From positions 1 to 24,662 of the IMG/VR virus record IMGVR_UViG_3300037119_001375: a stretch of 24,662 bases of DNA; one strand, given 5' to 3'. The stretch comes from a virus. The notes beneath the pieces were generated by a model. The model was not told the DNA's origin. It worked only from the letters and a program-made list of their open reading frames with translations, and made no database searches. Below, piece after piece: positions 4,268 to 22,086 of the stretch. The position numbers and the translations under genes were made by a program. The stretch's first letter is position 1; each line of letters begins with the position of its first letter.

Positions 4268-4747
4268 TCACACGTGCCGCCATTTTTCGCGCCGCTTGAT
4301 CAGCCCAACCAGAACGTCGGTCACGCCGTACTCGCGCGATAGCGCTGCGCATGTCTTGCCGGCATGTAGAGCCGAGCGGATAGCGCGCACCTGATCCTCT
4401 GTCAGTTTGGCGGCCGGATTCAGCGAGCCGGTCAAGCCTACGCTTCGGCCCTTCGAGACCATGTCGGCCATGTTCTCTTGGTGGGTACCTAGGAATAGGT
4501 GCTCTGGATTGACGCATGCAGGGTTGTCGCAGTGATGGCAGACGCACATCCCTCCCGGAACTTGCCTGCCGCTTGCAATCTCCCAAGTCGCCCGGTGAAG
4601 ACGAACATTCCTACCGTCACGGTGGATGCGCCCGTATCCGCATTCGTCTTTGCAGCCAGTCCATTCCCAGCACCAGGTCTCGACATTGACAACCGTTCCA
4701 GCGTGCAAGCGGTTTTCAAACGTCACGCCTTTCTTTGGCCTAGCCAA
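4268..4747 (-). CDS. Stand-alone HNH homing endonuclease
   Basis: The 159-residue protein has an HNH_3-like core (CHHCDNPACVNPEHLFLGTHQENMADMV) with H71/H72, N80 and H83 and zinc-binding cysteines C68, C70, C73 and C78. Before it lies CWEWTGCKDECGYGRI and RLHRATWE. The C-terminal part (115-155, LTEDQVRAIRSALHAGKTCAALSREYGV) looks like a helix-turn-helix DNA-reading module. It starts at a TTG with AGGGAG 7 bases upstream, overlaps the adaptor stop by 8 bases and is followed by a 10-base gap. Such genes are common free-standing homing elements in phages, so this one is probably inserted between adaptor and tail genes. Confidence 0.85.
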   Translation of the reverse strand: MARPKKGVTFENRLHAGTVVNVETWCWEWTGCKDECGYGRIHRDGRNVRLHRATWEIASGRQVPGGMCVCHHCDNPACVNPEHLFLGTHQENMADMVSKGRSVGLTGSLNPAAKLTEDQVRAIRSALHAGKTCAALSREYGVTDVLVGLIKRREKWRHV

Positions 4748-5453: not shown

Positions 5454-6124
5454 TCAACAACCTCGTTCGGCGTGCGAGGCCCGCGCGGCTTACCCTTCGG
5501 CCAGCCCTTGCGATTTACCTTGGACTTTTCCGCCAGCTTCGCCTCGCCTGCCAGAGTTATGGCCGCCAGTTCGGCGACTTGCTGGCCTAGGGCTTCCATC
5601 TGCGCTTGCAGCGCGGCCGTTTTGGCCCGTTCTGCGGCCAGGGCCTGCTCGAGCTCGACCGCCTTGGACGAGGTCCGGCCCAGAAACGCCTTCGCCTTGG
5701 CCTGCAGATCCCGGGCGCCCGTGCCGATGCCCTGGAGACCGTCATCGCCCAGCTCGGCCAGGTCCTCGACGGTGCGAATGCCCTTGATGCGCATCATCTC
5801 CACGCTAGACGGACCTAAGCCCAGCATTTCAACCGGGGTCCCGGTCACCGGCGCCTCGATGCCGCGCTTGAACGCCGCATATGCATTCGGGAACCGTTGC
5901 TTGTCCTCGAGCGTGACCTCGCGCACGAACACCTGCTTGTCCTGCCCCTTGACCAAAATCTTGACGTATTCACGGTCCTCGTAGATCGGCCGGCCAGCCT
6001 CGTGACTCTTGAGCCCCATCAGTTTTTTCTCTACCGTGAACGTCGCGTAACAGGCCCGGTCATCCTGCGTCGCGCCCGGCATGAAACTGGTGAAACTGGC
6101 GTCGGACTCGATATCAAGCTGCAT
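5450..6124 (-). CDS. Helix-hairpin-helix virion-region protein with AT-hook-like tail
   Basis: I prefer the ATG at 6124, with GGGAG upstream, over a TTG at 6148. The 224-residue product has an N-terminal beta domain (1-95), a helix-hairpin-helix-like region about 105-148 (MRIKGIRTVEDLAELGDDGLQGIG), a coiled coil about 154-200, and a Lys/Gly/Pro-rich end (NRKGWPKGKPRGP, residues 204-216) like an AT-hook. These elements point to DNA binding. It overlaps the glycosyltransferase stop by 11 bases and sits just before the adaptor gene. A role in DNA contact at the head vertex or in regulation is possible. The family is not named with certainty. Confidence 0.62.
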   Translation of the reverse strand: MQLDIESDASFTSFMPGATQDDRACYATFTVEKKLMGLKSHEAGRPIYEDREYVKILVKGQDKQVFVREVTLEDKQRFPNAYAAFKRGIEAPVTGTPVEMLGLGPSSVEMMRIKGIRTVEDLAELGDDGLQGIGTGARDLQAKAKAFLGRTSSKAVELEQALAAERAKTAALQAQMEALGQQVAELAAITLAGEAKLAEKSKVNRKGWPKGKPRGPRTPNEVVE

Positions 6125-7514
6125 CGCGTTGTGGCTCCCAATGGTCAATGATCCAGCTGATTAAACCGTCCCCGTGCACGGTGATGTTGCAGCCCATCTC
6201 GAGCAGCAGCGGCAGGAAGGCCTGAAAGTCAGATGCCTGCTTGGCCATCCATCTCCCGCACAGGAACTTGCGGTCCGCGCAGATGATCTCGAGCGTTGCT
6301 TCGTCATCGTTGAGCGCCTGCGGGTAGGCGTGGTGCGTGCCGCGGTAGCACGAGTCGAAGCCATACAGATGCAGCTTGCGATAGCCCCACAGAGCCACGA
6401 TGCACATGGCCTTTAAGCCCACCGTGTTGCCACCGCCAACAATGGTCAGCGGTTTGTGGACCTTGTCGCACAGACTTTCTGCATCCGGGTGATAGCCCAC
6501 CCACTGGACCACGTCGTAGCCCTCGAGCGCATCGAATACGCTTGGATGGCACTGCGAAGCCACCAGGTAGGTTGTTTTCTTGTGCGGGCGCAGGAACTGG
6601 ATATTCTCTGGCCGCGCGTCGAGCAAGACGTGAAACTCGGGCCGGATCCCGCGTTCCTCGAGCCACGCATAGGCCCCGTTCATGGCATAGATGTGCCCGC
6701 CGCGATCGTGGCGCTTGCGCAGGAATGGCAGCTCTTCCACGAGACTGGGCCCCCCGCCCACCAGGATGGCCTCGCCGGCGTGCGGGTCCATCTGCCGGAA
6801 TAGCTTGGTCTCCCGGTTGAGGTTGTGCTCCATTTGCTTGAGCATGACCTCGAGCGGGGTGTTGAGCCCGCGCACCCAGCGCGGCTGGCCTAAGCCACCG
6901 ATCTTCCACACCTGCGGCACCCAGCGATCGGTGACCTCGTGCGGCCGCGGCTCGCCGTGGAAACACACGATCGAGGTATTCACGCTCGGAATCCAGCTGA
7001 TCGCGTCGCGCTTATAGCTGCAGATCTGCTCTGGATACAGGTCCTGGAGCCGCTTGGTTTCCGGGTCCGGAATCCGGATCTGTTCGATCCACTCCTGGTC
7101 CCCGCCCGCGGGCTTAGGGCGCCCTGCATCGAGCCACATGCGCCACAGGTAGGAGTGATCACCGTGCCAGCGCATCACCGCCGATTGCAGCCCATCCCAG
7201 CGGTAGAAGTCACGCAGGATGGCAAAGTCTGAATCATCGTCGGCCAGAAACTCGAGCGGCCCGGTGATGACGGTGTCCAGATCGAAGTAAAGGACATCGC
7301 CTTTCAAGACTTCGAACAGGTAGAGCTTGGCCCACCAGCCCTTGAGATCTGGCGGCGCCTCGATGCACTCGATCCCTTTGATCGGCTCATCGGTCAAACA
7401 CACGAAGCGAAACGGCCGGCCAATATTGCGCCCGACCATGTCGCGCAGAATCTTGACGTACTCCTCGCCGCGGCCGAGGTAGTTGCCGACGTTCACACAA
7501 GCTACCGTCAGCAT
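6114..7514 (-). CDS. Glycosyltransferase fused to DUF115/MptE-like domain
   Basis: The 466-residue protein has two parts. Residues 1-205 resemble a GT-A-fold glycosyltransferase: a strand start (MLTVACVNVGNYLGRG), KLYLFEVLKGDVLYFDLDTVITGPL with a DxD-type D78-L-D80 metal site, and CFHGEPRPHE near 184-193. Residues 245-466 resemble the DUF115 (6-hydroxymethylpterin pyrophosphokinase MptE-like, also Maf flagellin-glycosylation) domain, with ILVGGGPSL (250-258) and LTIVGGGNTVG. Such fusions are known in phages and glycan loci. With the FkbM gene it forms a probable glycan transfer and methylation pair. The donor sugar and acceptor are unknown. Confidence 0.8.
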   Translation of the reverse strand: MLTVACVNVGNYLGRGEEYVKILRDMVGRNIGRPFRFVCLTDEPIKGIECIEAPPDLKGWWAKLYLFEVLKGDVLYFDLDTVITGPLEFLADDDSDFAILRDFYRWDGLQSAVMRWHGDHSYLWRMWLDAGRPKPAGGDQEWIEQIRIPDPETKRLQDLYPEQICSYKRDAISWIPSVNTSIVCFHGEPRPHEVTDRWVPQVWKIGGLGQPRWVRGLNTPLEVMLKQMEHNLNRETKLFRQMDPHAGEAILVGGGPSLVEELPFLRKRHDRGGHIYAMNGAYAWLEERGIRPEFHVLLDARPENIQFLRPHKKTTYLVASQCHPSVFDALEGYDVVQWVGYHPDAESLCDKVHKPLTIVGGGNTVGLKAMCIVALWGYRKLHLYGFDSCYRGTHHAYPQALNDDEATLEIICADRKFLCGRWMAKQASDFQAFLPLLLEMGCNITVHGDGLISWIIDHWEPQRDAA

Positions 7515-8113
7515 GCGAATACCTTGTCACGGTGAAGTTGCCCAACCTCGCGATATCCCATGCGCTCGAGCATGGCGAAAGCCTCGTTGCGAAGCCCAGC
7601 CACGGTGCACAGGTTCTTATCCTCGACCGCCACCACCGGCTTGAAGCGCGCCAGCGTGTTGCGAGCCCCGAACAGCGCTTGCGGCTCGTGGCCTTCGATG
7701 TCCAGATAGATCAGGTCGCAGGCCGTCAGGCCAAGCGAGTCGATCGTGAGCATGGGGATGATTCCAGCTCCGTCGATCTGGTGCGCGCCGATGTTGTCGG
7801 AAACCCGATTCATTCCCACCAGCACCGGGCGATCACCGAGGGCTGCCTGCAGCCGAATCACGTTTGGCCGCATGCGCGTATTCCAGGCCAGGCAGGAGAA
7901 ATTCTGCGGATCCGGCTCGAACGTGTAGACCGTGTTGAAATCACCAGCGAGATGGTTCGGCCACAGGCCGACGTTTCCGCCGGCCTGCACCGCCACCTCT
8001 CTGGCCTTGCAGAATCCCACCACGATATCGATGTCTCCCACCTCCTCGCGAGAAGATGGGAGACAGATTTGATCCGCGGCGGGAACTGCCAGGCCTCCGT
8101 CGAAACGAAACAT
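7508..8113 (-). CDS. FkbM-family methyltransferase
   Basis: The 201-residue protein matches FkbM-type SAM-dependent methyltransferases, which methylate hydroxyl groups, often on sugars. The SAM-binding region is AVQAGGNVGLWPNHLA (residues 41-56), followed by TVYTFEPDPQNF (61-72), where the acidic residue after the second strand is expected to hold the ribose. A later strand, IPMLTIDSLGLTACDLIYLDIEGHE, contains the DxEGxE signature of the family. The ATG directly follows the upstream stop. It overlaps by 7 bases with the glycosyltransferase gene, so the two are likely made together. The family function is well known, but the sugar substrate here is inferred. Confidence 0.82.
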   Translation of the reverse strand: MFRFDGGLAVPAADQICLPSSREEVGDIDIVVGFCKAREVAVQAGGNVGLWPNHLAGDFNTVYTFEPDPQNFSCLAWNTRMRPNVIRLQAALGDRPVLVGMNRVSDNIGAHQIDGAGIIPMLTIDSLGLTACDLIYLDIEGHEPQALFGARNTLARFKPVVAVEDKNLCTVAGLRNEAFAMLERMGYREVGQLHRDKVFAC

Positions 8114-13722: not shown

Positions 13723-15095
13723 TTCACCACCTCAAACCACTGGCCATTGCGCTTGACGTAGTTCTTGCCGCCAAGCGTCTTGGTTTCCTCGGCCGGCGCC
13801 TTTGCTTCTGCTTTTGGCGCAGCCTTGGGCGCACCTGGCGCGGCCTTGGCCCCTGGCCGCACCAGCGGCCGCACGATGTTGGCCGGATCTTGGCCTAGCC
13901 TCTTGGCTGTCTCCTCGTATCCCTTGACCACTTGCGCGTGCTGCTCGCCGATGGCGTCATAGAGCTGACCAGATCTAGCGACGAAGTCAGCGCGCAGCCG
14001 CGGATCGAGCGAGCCCTCCTGCGTCAAAAGCTTGTTGTACGCGCCAATGATGCTTTGCTCGACGTTCCCAGCATTGCGCGCGGTGGCGTACTCGCCTTCT
14101 CGCACAACAGAGTTGGGGTCTAGCATTTTCATGTAGGCGAAAATCAGCGAGACGTCGCCGGCTGGGCTGGGATTCTCGGCAGATTTGAGCACGCGGGAGT
14201 AGTGATCACGGACCAGGAACATCTCTTTGGTGTCCTGCCGGAAGTCATCCCGCAGGCCTGCGATGATCTTGTAATCATCCTGCTTCTGGCTGCGCTCGGC
14301 CCTGGCCCGCTCTTTCGCCTGCTTCTCTGCCTCCTTCCGGGCCTTCTCGGCTTCCCGCGGCAAACCGGCCGCCTCGAGCCGCTGCGCCACATGCTGGTAA
14401 TACGCTGGACTCTCGGAATCGTCCTCCCCGTATGCCGTGGGTACCGCTGTGTCCACAGGCATGCCCGTCGTGGGTACCGCTGTGTCCACAGGCATACCAG
14501 TGTCGGTCTGCAGCCCAACCGGCATGACTTGCCCCTCGCCCTCGCCGCCCGTTGGCGTGAGCACCGGCCCCTGCGGCCTGGGCTGCTTCTGCCGGCCGCG
14601 CCACTCCTTATCAATGCCCTGCATCGCTGCGGCCACACGTTGATTCTGCATCTCGCGCGGGTCCAGAGAAGACTTCAGGATTTGCGACAGCGCTCCGCCA
14701 GCGTCTTCCGGGTCCAGCGACGACATGGCCGCCACCAGAGCCGCCTGCCGCGTCTGCGGATCGCTGTTCGGGTCCTGCGCCGCCGGCATGTAAGTGGTAA
14801 GCGCCTTGGCAACCTCGTCCCGGCGCTTCTGCTTCTTAGCGGTCTCCTCGGCGAGCATGGTCGTGCGCAGCGCAGACTCCTCGCGGTCAGCCTTCTCAAT
14901 GCCCCGCTGACCGCTGATCGCCTGCGCCAGCTGCGCGATGCCGCCGAATGGGTTGGCCTTGACAACCTGATACGGGCCGGACTGCCCGACACTGGCCTGA
15001 GATGGGCTGGCGAAAGCGTTGCTCGATATAGCCTCGGCAATCTTGCGGCTGCGATTGATTCTGGCCAGCCTGGGATCTTCCATTGTCACAGCCAT
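13719..15095 (-). CDS. Putative internal virion/ejection protein with 11-residue repeat
   Basis: This 458-residue protein starts at an ATG preceded by GAGAGGAAAG. An N-terminal helical region (1-160) is rich in Ala/Gln. A proline/threonine linker holds two copies of TGMPVDTAVPT. A charged coiled-coil-like region (about 240-280, EAEKARKEAEKQAKERARAE) comes next. A conserved-looking domain follows with SLIFAYMKMLDPNSVVREGEYATARNAG, a segment I associate with podovirus internal or ejection proteins. The tail is Ala/Pro/Lys-rich and ends GKNYVKRNGQWFEVVK. Its location between the portal and the larger ejection protein supports a role in DNA delivery, but this is inferred. Confidence 0.6.
   Translation of the reverse strand: MAVTMEDPRLARINRSRKIAEAISSNAFASPSQASVGQSGPYQVVKANPFGGIAQLAQAISGQRGIEKADREESALRTTMLAEETAKKQKRRDEVAKALTTYMPAAQDPNSDPQTRQAALVAAMSSLDPEDAGGALSQILKSSLDPREMQNQRVAAAMQGIDKEWRGRQKQPRPQGPVLTPTGGEGEGQVMPVGLQTDTGMPVDTAVPTTGMPVDTAVPTAYGEDDSESPAYYQHVAQRLEAAGLPREAEKARKEAEKQAKERARAERSQKQDDYKIIAGLRDDFRQDTKEMFLVRDHYSRVLKSAENPSPAGDVSLIFAYMKMLDPNSVVREGEYATARNAGNVEQSIIGAYNKLLTQEGSLDPRLRADFVARSGQLYDAIGEQHAQVVKGYEETAKRLGQDPANIVRPLVRPGAKAAPGAPKAAPKAEAKAPAEETKTLGGKNYVKRNGQWFEVVK
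14436..14495. repeat. 27-bp direct repeat with 33-bp period
   Basis: The 27 bases from 14436 to 14462 recur exactly at 14469 to 14495. They encode the two TGMPVDTAVPT units of the protein linker. The near-perfect identity suggests a recent duplication, which could vary in copy number between isolates. Confidence 0.8.
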
Positions 15096-15766
15096 CTGCT
15101 TTCCTCTCTCACCGCGCGAGAAATCATCCCAAACCGCTCGAGCACAACGGCGCGCTTGTCGTCACTCAGGTTGGCGATGCGCTTTTGGTTCTCGTCAAGG
15201 AACGCGGTGCAATCCCAGCAGTCTCTGGACGTGTCCTCGCGATGGTAGTACGCTGGAACCTCGGCTTTGACCTCGCGCAGGTAAGCAAAGACCTCATCGC
15301 GCGTCCAATTCTCCAGCGGATACACGTACTCGATGCCCTCGTGCACCTCGCCGCTGCGCACCGGACCCTTGCGCGCTTCGTCGTTACGCTGGCCGCGTAT
15401 TATCTTGGTCACGCCCAGGCTTCGCATCGCCTCTCGCAACGGCAACCAGATGTTCTCTGCACAACACGCCATCCAGCCCTGAATCAAGTAGGGCGTTGGC
15501 GTGCCCAGCAGATTTCCCATCTCGGTGTAGCGCAGCGGCACCACATCGGAGGGAAAGCCACGCTTGGCAATCTGCGCCGGCTGATCGCTCTTGACCTCAA
15601 GGAAGTGCGGCAGGCGCTTAGCCCAGCTGCGCATGGTCTCGACTACCTCGGGATAGGCCGCCCCTGTGTTCACCCACACCACATACAGGTCATCCCACTG
15701 CTCTCGATACAGGTACAGGCATGCAAGCGAATCCTTGCCACCCGAGAACTGTAGGGCTGTGGTCAC
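15086..15766 (-). CDS. PP-loop Fe-S enzyme related to PAPS/APS reductase
   Basis: This 226-residue protein of the adenine-nucleotide alpha-hydrolase/PAPS-reductase superfamily starts at a GTG overlapping the upstream stop. The PP-loop SGGKDS is at residues 8-13. C101-C102 and C183-x-x-C186 form a CC-X80-CxxC arrangement, which in APS reductases binds a [4Fe-4S] cluster. Other conserved parts are RGQRNDEARKGP (124-135) and PLENWTRDEVFAYL (150-163). The C-terminal ECG(L/I)H motif with the catalytic cysteine of true APS/PAPS reductases is absent, since the protein ends EESRWL. It may therefore be a sulfur-transfer or nucleotide-modifying enzyme (DndC and some tRNA thiolases are relatives) rather than a sulfate-assimilation enzyme. 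Confidence 0.8.
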   Translation of the reverse strand: MTTALQFSGGKDSLACLYLYREQWDDLYVVWVNTGAAYPEVVETMRSWAKRLPHFLEVKSDQPAQIAKRGFPSDVVPLRYTEMGNLLGTPTPYLIQGWMACCAENIWLPLREAMRSLGVTKIIRGQRNDEARKGPVRSGEVHEGIEYVYPLENWTRDEVFAYLREVKAEVPAYYHREDTSRDCWDCTAFLDENQKRIANLSDDKRAVVLERFGMISRAVREESRWL

Positions 15767-19899: not shown

Positions 19900-22086
19900 T
19901 CAAATGCGTCTCCGCGCCTGCGGCCGATCGTTCCTCTCGATCAGGTCATTGAACGTTGGCGCCTTGATGTGCACGAAGTCGAAGGGCTTGCGCTCGATCT
20001 TGGTCGCCACCCACGGCCGCGCCATGCAGGCGTAGCGCGTCTCATCGCAATTGGATGCGACCAGGCCGTTGACTGAAAGCCAGCCCTCGGCCGTGCCTAG
20101 GCAATAGACGTTATACAGCCCTGGCAGCGGCTCGACGCCTACGCAGCGCTTTTGCCTTGCAGTTTTGATGGCAGAACTTTGCTCGATGCGCTTGGACAGC
20201 GCACGCCTCGAACGCTCGCCCGCATACCTCGCAAGTCTTGACAACGCGCTGCGCCATGACCTGAGCAACATGCTTGGCAAAGTGCTCGGCGTGCCAGCGC
20301 TTCCCCTCTGCGCTCCCGTGCCACCTTGCGGCCGCTTCTCTGGCTGTGCTTGGGATGACCCCTGGGGCTTGCTTTGCGTGGTGCGATAGGTGATCAAAGG
20401 CGCGCATGAGCGCGAGATTTGCGAGTCTGTTGTTAGCGCGGTCCCCGTCGATGTGGTGAACATGGCAGCCGGCAGGAACGGGGCCATGATGGCATTCCCA
20501 CACCACGCGATGAAGTCGCACGCCATTGCGCTGAAAGTACAGACCGCAGCGCCAATACCTGCGCCCGCCAAACTCCTGACAGCTTGCGCTGACGATACGC
20601 GGCTCCCCGCCAGGTTGAGCGCCGCTATCCATTGCCCACCATCAGCCAGAAACTTGTGATTCGGCGTGCAATCGATGCGCGATCCATCGTCGAAGTGTAG
20701 CCGCACCAGTTGCATATCGCAACCCGTCAGTTGCCCCACCTCTTCGACGCTCCCGAGCCCATCGATAACAGTCCCAGCCGCGAAGCAGGCATGGTCCTCG
20801 CCATCGGTGTCGACGTCCTCGGCCGATGCCTGGTCGTGCTGCAGGGCCGGCAGGGTGCGGATCGTGTGCTGGCAGGTCGAGAAGAACAGGATCATCGGCC
20901 AGCCCTCCTCGCCGATCAGGCGCGCTCGCACCTGATCCCAGCCGCCCATGGCACCACGCCGGCCCACGCGCGTGTTGTCGGCCCGGTTCCAGATGACACT
21001 ACGGCGCAGCATGCGCTCGGCAATGCTCGGCCCGCCGTCTTCTGCGAAGCAGGACGGGTCCAGCCGGCTGATCGCCTGGTTGATGGTCTCGCCGGCTTCC
21101 CGTAGCTTGATGCCGTCGGCGACCTCCTCCGCGGTCATCTTGAGCCCGACGTTAGGCTGGCCGGGCTGCATGCCGTACCACTCGCGATACTTGACCAGGC
21201 AGCCTCGTGGCACGGTTGGCAGGCTGCCGTCGCTGATCGCATACCAGCCCACCGAGAAGGGCTTGGCCGAGCCCCAGTCGCAGGCCCGGTAACGGCTCCA
21301 GCTCTCCGGGATCTCGAACGGATCGCGCACGTGATGCGTCATCGAGAACTCGGGGAAGAACGCCCCGGCAATCACACTCCAGTCGCCCTCGAGCCAGGCC
21401 TTGACCAGCTGCTCGTTGCCGACCAGGTGCAGTCGGTCGACGTAGCCAGGATCGCCCTGCAGCAGGATCTGGTTGTCCTGGACCTTGGACGGTATGAACA
21501 CGTAGCGGTGCACGTTGCCGCTGGGCAGCTTGCGCTCGAGCATGCGCATGCCGTGCGGGGCTGGATCCACATAGCGCATCTTGATCCACTGGTGTCCTGG
21601 GCCGGCAGGGTTAGCCGTCAGAATCAATTGGATGGGAACGCCGGTGGTTGATCGTAAGCAGCCGAACAGCCGGTCGATCGGTGCTGGGCTGGGATAGTTG
21701 CCGGCCTCTTCGACCGCGGCATCTGAGAGGTTCTGGCCCTGGTACTTCTCGGCGTCAGCCAGGTCCAGCAAGGGCCGGAAGCGCACGCGCCCTCCGCCAG
21801 GCATGGCAAAGGTCCTGCGATACTCGGACCACTTCGCGCCCACCGAGCAGAAGATCTGCTTTGCGCGCTCGACGACGTCGTCTTGCTGGGGTAGCTCTTT
21901 GCGGAAGAACACGGCGTTGAAGTGGCGTCCGTAACGGTTGGCTTTGATCGCCCACTTGCCCAGGATCCCATCCGTTTTACCGCCTCCGCGCGCCCCGCCA
22001 AAGAAGATCTCCGGCAGCGGGCAGTCAATTAGCGCTTTCTGAGGTCCCGATTGAGGGGCCCAGGCTATATCGTTCCTGCCAGTCAT
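19900..22086 (-). CDS. terL: Terminase large subunit, intein-containing precursor
   Basis: The 728-codon precursor is the motor and nuclease of DNA packaging. The ATPase part shows Walker A GGARGGGKT (residues 30-38), a Walker B-like DAAVEE (122-127) and the coupling motif LTANP (156-160). The RNase H-like nuclease shows ACDWG (D270), CFAEDGG (D350) and GEDHA (D431). Directly after A433 an intein begins (C434) and runs to N679, after which the extein resumes with CDETRYACMARPW. Removing it restores EDHA-CDETRY, the expected last nuclease motif, and gives a 482-residue protein of normal TerL length. A separate HNH gene is nested in another frame inside the intein. The start is the ATG inside the terS end, and no strong ribosome-binding site is seen, so translation is probably coupled. 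Confidence 0.9.
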   Translation of the reverse strand: MTGRNDIAWAPQSGPQKALIDCPLPEIFFGGARGGGKTDGILGKWAIKANRYGRHFNAVFFRKELPQQDDVVERAKQIFCSVGAKWSEYRRTFAMPGGGRVRFRPLLDLADAEKYQGQNLSDAAVEEAGNYPSPAPIDRLFGCLRSTTGVPIQLILTANPAGPGHQWIKMRYVDPAPHGMRMLERKLPSGNVHRYVFIPSKVQDNQILLQGDPGYVDRLHLVGNEQLVKAWLEGDWSVIAGAFFPEFSMTHHVRDPFEIPESWSRYRACDWGSAKPFSVGWYAISDGSLPTVPRGCLVKYREWYGMQPGQPNVGLKMTAEEVADGIKLREAGETINQAISRLDPSCFAEDGGPSIAERMLRRSVIWNRADNTRVGRRGAMGGWDQVRARLIGEEGWPMILFFSTCQHTIRTLPALQHDQASAEDVDTDGEDHACFAAGTVIDGLGSVEEVGQLTGCDMQLVRLHFDDGSRIDCTPNHKFLADGGQWIAALNLAGSRVSSAQAVRSLAGAGIGAAVCTFSAMACDFIAWCGNAIMAPFLPAAMFTTSTGTALTTDSQISRSCAPLITYRTTQSKPQGSSQAQPEKRPQGGTGAQRGSAGTPSTLPSMLLRSWRSALSRLARYAGERSRRALSKRIEQSSAIKTARQKRCVGVEPLPGLYNVYCLGTAEGWLSVNGLVASNCDETRYACMARPWVATKIERKPFDFVHIKAPTFNDLIERNDRPQARRRI
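20050..20787 (-). mobile_element. TerL intein (246 codons)
   Basis: This is an in-frame protein-splicing element. Block A is CFAAGTVIDGLGSVEEV, starting at Cys1 (precursor residue 434). Block B is RIDCTPNHKFLADGGQW, with the T-x-x-H pair (T474, H477). Blocks F/G are GLYNVYCLGTAEGW and NGLVASN, followed by extein Cys+1. The residue before the terminal Asn is Ser, not the usual His. The recognisable splicing parts add up to only about 95 residues. The roughly 150 residues between them in this frame are low-complexity (Ser/Ala/Arg/Gln-rich), look like no endonuclease, and coincide with the HNH gene read in another frame. Splicing is inferred from the motifs and the restored TerL sequence. Confidence 0.88.
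20111..20632 (-). CDS. HNH homing endonuclease nested out of frame inside the intein
   Basis: A 173-residue protein is encoded wholly within the intein but in a different frame from terL. It shows an HNH_3-type core: LHRVVWECHHGPVP (H41), then HVHHIDGDRANN with H59/H60, D62, N67/N68 and N72. A C-terminal zinc-finger-like segment follows, with CEVC (C134, C137) and CHQNC (C154, C158), as in many phage HNH endonucleases. An in-frame TGA lies four codons before its ATG, so the gene must start at or after 20632. The upstream TGGTGGG is only a weak ribosome-binding site. The first codons overlap intein block B, and the TAA stop falls inside block F codons. It probably cuts intein-free terL alleles, as homing enzymes do, but that is inference. 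Confidence 0.82.
   Translation of the reverse strand: MDSGAQPGGEPRIVSASCQEFGGRRYWRCGLYFQRNGVRLHRVVWECHHGPVPAGCHVHHIDGDRANNRLANLALMRAFDHLSHHAKQAPGVIPSTAREAAARWHGSAEGKRWHAEHFAKHVAQVMAQRVVKTCEVCGRAFEACAVQAHRAKFCHQNCKAKALRRRRAAARAV

Follow-up and report, generated by a model that had tools for sequence, protein, structure and literature searches.

The gene for the terminase large subunit (terL) in IMG/VR virus record IMGVR_UViG_3300037119_001375 raises the question of how a single open reading frame can contain an intein and, inside that intein, a complete endonuclease gene that is read in another frame. Inteins are taught as a single polypeptide with an optional fused endonuclease. In the following, the window denotes the whole stretch of DNA that was analysed (24,662 nucleotides); the features of the locus are collected in Table 1.

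Table 1. Features of the terL locus in the window (SD: Shine-Dalgarno).
Feature	Positions	Strand	Details	Basis
terL ORF	19900..22086	-	728 aa, no stop throughout intein and nested HNH gene	
TerL N-extein	20788..22086	-	residues 1-433, end ...DTDGEDHA	alignment to intein-free TerLs
Intein	20050..20787	-	246 aa, CFAAGT...LVASN, TerL residues 434-679	motifs, Hint fold (predicted), empty-site comparison
N-terminal splicing half of the intein	20590..20787	-	blocks A and B, residues 1-66	Hint half-fold predicted with confidence, intein alignment
Weak SD-like stretch	20633..20643	-	GATGGTGGGCA, just ahead of the HNH ATG	anti-SD duplex energy -6.3 kcal/mol
HNH_3 endonuclease gene	20111..20632	-	complete, 173 aa, ATG...TGA, frame other than terL	HNH_3 match, conserved residues, structure
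Intein-frame linker	20260..20580	-	residues 70-176, out-of-frame reading of the HNH core	pLDDT, alignment
C-terminal splicing half of the intein	20050..20154	-	blocks F and G, residues 212-246, N246 then +1 Cys	pLDDT
TerL C-extein	19903..20049	-	49 aa, begins CDETRYACMARP...	empty-site alignment

The encoded TerL has relatives at 44-69% identity, and comparison with intein-free TerLs shows that the insertion is precise, as is expected of an intein: where the intein-free proteins read EDHAADETRYACMSRP, the window reads EDHA/CDETRYACMARP (the slash marks the intein). The site is the conserved TerL nuclease motif, which removal of the intein would restore, the resulting junction being EDHA/CDETRY as compared to EDHAADETRY in intein-free relatives. 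As to motifs, the insert opens at C1 with block A (CFAAGT), T41 and H44 lie in block B (SRIDCTPNHK), block F reads VYCLGTAEG, and the end is LVASN/C. In an alignment of 28 relatives C1, T41, H44 and the C-terminal Asn (N246 in the window, then C) were invariant. Neither the block F His nor the penultimate His is present in the window copy (its end is A-S-N/C), so that its splicing could be slow or lost; many relatives have both. Because the window copy also scored below the cut-off of the Pfam intein model, its identification rests on the motifs, the relatives, the fold and the empty site; some of the relatives do score above the curated cut-offs of intein models.

In the AlphaFold (AF2) model of the intein frame, residues 1-66 and 212-246 form two halves that are predicted with confidence, and the stretch between them is disordered. 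The pLDDT was 94-97 for residues 1-60, 79 for residues 61-70 and 83-96 for residues 212-246, and dropped to around 40 for residues 70-123 and 139-176, the linker (residues 70-176) being of low complexity and mostly predicted to be disordered. The HHIDGD of the HNH protein, when read in the intein frame, becomes Ser/Thr-rich (MSTTxTGTxxTT). Low-complexity linkers of this kind might hamper folding. A Foldseek search with the model returned almost exclusively inteins or related Hint domains among the top 50 (best match: E 2e-3, probability 1.0), in a list led by the Mtu RecA mini-intein, and the two halves in the terL frame are thus predicted to adopt the Hint fold. Motifs, fold and empty site together show that the insert is a class 1-like Hint intein; that the protein splices is inferred.

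The ORF nested in this intein matches the HNH_3 domain (E = 8e-17) with HNH motif and zinc finger intact. It carries four zinc-ligand cysteines, and H59, H60, N68 and H81 as well as C134, C137, C154 and C158 were invariant among 44 relatives. Its AlphaFold model reached a pLDDT of 92.5. The only convincing PDB match was I-HmuI (1u3e; probability 0.97, E 7e-3), but the overall superposition was poor (TM 0.31) and the resemblance is therefore one of class. The HNH ATG overlaps intein codons 52-53, some 8 residues past the block B His, and the stop sits just ahead of the VYCL strand of block F. The bases in front of the start read TGA TGG TGG GCA ATG, and the TGA four codons upstream makes an in-frame fusion impossible, so that the window element does not meet the criterion of a standard homing intein, an endonuclease fused in frame.

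These results bear out a preliminary description of the locus, drawn up from sequence alone, in which intein blocks A, B, F and G were placed at the ends of the insert with a low-complexity region between them, a full HNH_3 protein with a C-terminal zinc finger was read from another frame and held to be unfused because of the TGA, and no terL-frame stop was seen across the nest. The description needed correction with respect to the two absent histidines; the overlap of the HNH start with block B and the location of the stop at block F held as well, the stop now being placed just before the VYCL strand.

Some further ORFs on the minus strand of the window deserve mention. A second, free-standing HNH_3 ORF (4268-4747, E = 3e-13), with a partial match to a zinc-loop homing endonuclease, lies amid structural genes. 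A PAPS reductase-domain protein (15086-15766, E = 1e-16) is encoded amid phage structural genes, and in the structural region (6114-8113) neighbouring ORFs bear domains of the MptE-like (E = 2e-19) and FkbM methyltransferase (E = 3e-8) types.

To establish how common the arrangement is, the HNH was used as query against viral contigs, bacterial genomes and phage records, including a profile search of genome contigs built on a 14-row HNH alignment, and the intein halves were scored in every frame, irrespective of openness. This yielded 180 loci of the HNH subfamily. At 133 of these, both intein halves lie in one frame that is open across an out-of-frame HNH, with the HNH offset of the window (+1) at 124 loci and the other offset at 9; both halves with a broken or changed frame were found at 15 loci and no intein at 25, the remainder being partial. 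An in-frame HNH fusion was found in none of 245 HNH domain matches. Carriers include Tetrasphaera phage TJE1, Acinetobacter phage vB_AbaM_Highwayman and Rhodobacteraceae phage LS06-2018-MD07, the annotation of which says terminase only, as well as Janthinobacterium sp. PC23-8. One locus (L235, 1-2832) comprises a single terL ORF with two inteins, at the ATPase site and at the nuclease site, each with an HNH of its own that lies out of frame in the same offset. Going beyond the preliminary description, an out-of-frame HNH within an intein is thus, at the level of sequence, the normal state of a large phage/prophage family. Two sister metagenome contigs (L001, L002) hold a copy identical to that of the window and more than 100 divergent relatives have the same build, which excludes compensating assembly errors.

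Both coding layers are genuine, and selection acts on each of them. Synonymous shuffling of the HNH codons kept the terL frame of the window copy open with P = 0.0065. Over the 103 non-redundant +1 nests no container-frame stop was present where 200.3 were expected, and the same shuffling for the 8 nests in the other offset gave 0 stops against 76.6 expected; the controls (third frame, split relatives and free-standing relatives) were at expectation. The nests were classed partly by openness and the zero count as such is therefore by selection of loci; the result is nevertheless informative because nearly all loci with two halves fall in the open class and the controls do not. The nests are kept open even in genomes near 33% GC. 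Substitutions between relatives peak at the third codon position of terL outside the nest and at the third position of the HNH inside it. The differences at container positions 1/2/3 for one pair of relatives (L092/L137) amounted to 86/67/265 upstream, 8/36/11 in the nest and 6/4/22 downstream, and for another (L118/L128) to 24/14/107, 6/19/5 and 2/1/10, respectively. This switch in codon phase implies that selection in the middle of the element preserves the HNH protein: the container frame need only stay open and supply two Hint halves, whereas the HNH frame keeps its protein sequence. The out-of-frame HNH in several related TerL inteins (133/180 loci) and the conservation of its frame (codon periodicity, invariant residues) were checks that the preliminary description had proposed, and none of the outcomes that it named as refutation, i.e. 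an in-frame homologue, an HNH frame that is not conserved or a pair of assembly errors, occurred.

Separate translation of the HNH is supported, though not proven, by the sequences ahead of its start. A Shine-Dalgarno motif was found at the HNH start in 45 of 101 nests, as compared to 9.6% at control ATGs, and anti-SD pairing was stronger at the HNH starts (p = 4e-10); the 8 nests in the other offset showed no SD enrichment. Initiation in the window copy, with its weak SD-like stretch, is inferred.

The element has spread across unrelated terminases. HNHs that are 50-55% identical occur in TerLs without BLAST similarity to each other, intein and HNH can both be alike across unrelated TerLs (e.g. 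L180/L215), and the TerL nuclease motif harbours a cluster of several insertion points. In a tree of 144 HNHs, 23 changes of architecture are required, albeit by a quick method and with many weak branches; the starred branches force at least 5 changes for the main class.

Related states were recovered too. Apparent TerL split inteins whose halves flank the HNH were found at L250, L189, L186, L194, L204, L223 and in Lactobacillus phage CL2 (L173), and the halves have their own start codons in L250, L189, L186, L204, L223 and phage CL2. In the latter, the C-terminal intein half and the C-extein are unannotated. At another locus (L124, 2648-3704) the intein halves share a frame that five stops interrupt along the HNH, which may represent a split or a decayed form. 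Free-standing relatives of the HNH directly adjoin terL in Pseudomonas PAE1 and FBPa53, in Sphaerotilus SN1 and in others. Finally, three inteins in DNA polymerase I (PolA; L154, L158, L159) hide an HNH_3 protein out of frame, in the other relative offset and with 0 stops against 4-9 expected. This HNH_3 has a different N-terminal region, and the different HNH type points to an independent origin; essentially no close relatives of the hidden PolA HNHs were found in viral contigs besides themselves.

The reading that we consider likely is that of a cis-splicing homing intein in which the DNA of the linker doubles as the gene of an endonuclease with its own translation, where splicing, HNH translation, cutting and homing are all inferred. 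In one frame, the terL message would be read into TerL with a cis-splicing mini-intein (Hint domain) that has a disordered linker in its middle and that would excise itself to restore TerL. In the other frame, the linker DNA would yield a complete I-HmuI-like HNH from an internal start, a step that the SD enrichment supports. This HNH would then cut or nick intein-free terL at the conserved codons of the nuclease motif, and repair would copy intein and HNH jointly into the empty site. Cutting and homing are inferred from the insertion site, the sporadic distribution and the horizontal spread.

Among the alternatives, the one that survives best, though we regard it as unlikely, is that the HNH is a packaging helper nuclease and not a homing enzyme, with the intein as an incidental host. 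For HK97-like phages, it has been proposed that HNH genes which neighbour the terminase act in packaging, and since some free-standing relatives directly adjoin terL, such a role of the HNH is not excluded. Against it speak: the many empty sites (most terL relatives lack an HNH), the placement of the element exactly at conserved codons, the co-occurrence of intein and HNH in unrelated TerLs, the presence of a different hidden HNH in DNA polymerase inteins, and a homing endonuclease as best fold match. A ribosomal frameshift from terL that would give a fused intein-HNH protein without internal initiation is more doubtful still. A frameshift would agree with the near-constancy of the relative frame (103 of 111 non-redundant nests), but this is expected anyway because, given the HNH protein, stops are about 8-fold rarer in the +1 frame (200 vs 1627); moreover, the TGA upstream of the HNH ATG leaves a landing zone of only 9 bases in the window, and SD motifs are enriched at the HNH starts. 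Removal of the insert at the RNA level by a group I intron or the like, with the intein motifs as coincidence, can practically be ruled out: a nested HNH gene is what one would typically see in a group I intron, but the terL frame is open throughout, the intein motifs go together with a predicted Hint fold and with relatives above the curated intein-model cut-offs, and an Rfam search of the window and six relatives gave no match to a group I ribozyme core or other RNA element, on which ground such elements were rejected. Very unlikely, too, is the notion that the HNH is a relic or an accidental ORF in a high-GC linker and that only the intein matters (or the reverse): high GC does open alternative frames more often and a few single loci have P(open) > 0.5, but chance opening is rejected by the synonymous shuffling (103 loci, 0 stops where 200 were expected) and by the relatives with a GC content near 33%, and with invariant catalytic residues and HNH-frame periodicity within the nests the notion is refuted at the family level and very unlikely for the window copy.

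A bolder reading suggests itself as well, to which we incline with some reserve. Phages and prophages would harbour a widespread, unrecognised class of dual-coded homing inteins in which a cis-splicing mini-intein and a free HNH with its own translation share DNA in different frames; the class would have arisen repeatedly, with one HNH type in terminases and another in DNA polymerase inteins, and the free-standing HNHs and split inteins would be related or intermediate states. The overprinting of an endonuclease on an intein, in another frame and at well over 100 divergent loci, seems to be a widespread way to build a mobile intein that has apparently not been described, with the reservation that splicing and cutting are inferred. 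It constitutes a natural case of gene overprinting within an essential gene, offers a testable route linking free-standing nucleases, split inteins and homing inteins, and could supply compact inteins that have tolerant linkers and come with matched endonucleases. Catalogues of inteins that rest on in-frame translation would overlook the nuclease of such elements.

How does the element compare to known systems? Homing inteins carry their endonuclease domain fused in frame (standard LAGLIDADG, in some cases HNH). The window element resembles them in its Hint splicing domain, in having conserved active-site codons as its site, in the position of the endonuclease in the middle and in its horizontal spread, but differs in that the endonuclease is encoded in another frame as a protein of its own (0 of the 245 family matches are fused). 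Established as well are fractured genes, in which a free-standing endonuclease gene lies between the two parts of a split intein. Those recovered here (L250, L189, phage CL2) share the HNH subfamily, the TerL site and the separate translation of the endonuclease, which is inferred, with the window; the window and most relatives, in contrast, have one continuous intein polypeptide that is overlapped by the endonuclease gene, and whereas the host gene of L250 and L189 is divided into two halves, each with a start and a stop of its own, its frame is open in the window. Nested HNH genes in group I introns are likewise established, and with those, such as I-HmuI, the window has in common the HNH class (best fold match) and the nested gene with its own translation, which for the window is inferred; it differs in that there is no ribozyme, the whole insert is translated and its removal would occur at the protein level.

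In the full-text literature that we searched, an out-of-frame endonuclease inside an intein was not described, so that the earlier impression of an unreported arrangement held within these bounds; a preprint on non-canonical phage inteins (10.1101/2025.01.02.630785) fell outside the search, but the ShiLan paper of the same group (PMC11855218) cites it without mention of such an arrangement in inteins. In the ShiLan case an HNH is hidden in phage DNA methylase genes, and the authors tested the element and found it to be neither intein nor intron; the domain is thought to stay in the methylase (PMC11855218). We observed an element that resembles it, but in Bacillota: a DNA methylase gene of Oceanobacillus sojae (L277, 343-2076) contains an out-of-frame HNH_3 ORF, with no intein recognised, and tblastn from this hidden HNH to mycobacteriophage ShiLan records found no link. 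The ShiLan element and that of the window are alike in that an HNH with its own start and stop lies in another frame inside a host gene whose frame stays open, and in their sporadic, homing-like distribution. They differ in the container: that of the window is an intein that has both its splicing halves and sits in a packaging gene that is essential, whereas ShiLan elements have no detectable splicing domain. ShiLan, a near relative of the arrangement though without an intein, is the closest published precedent for an out-of-frame HNH.
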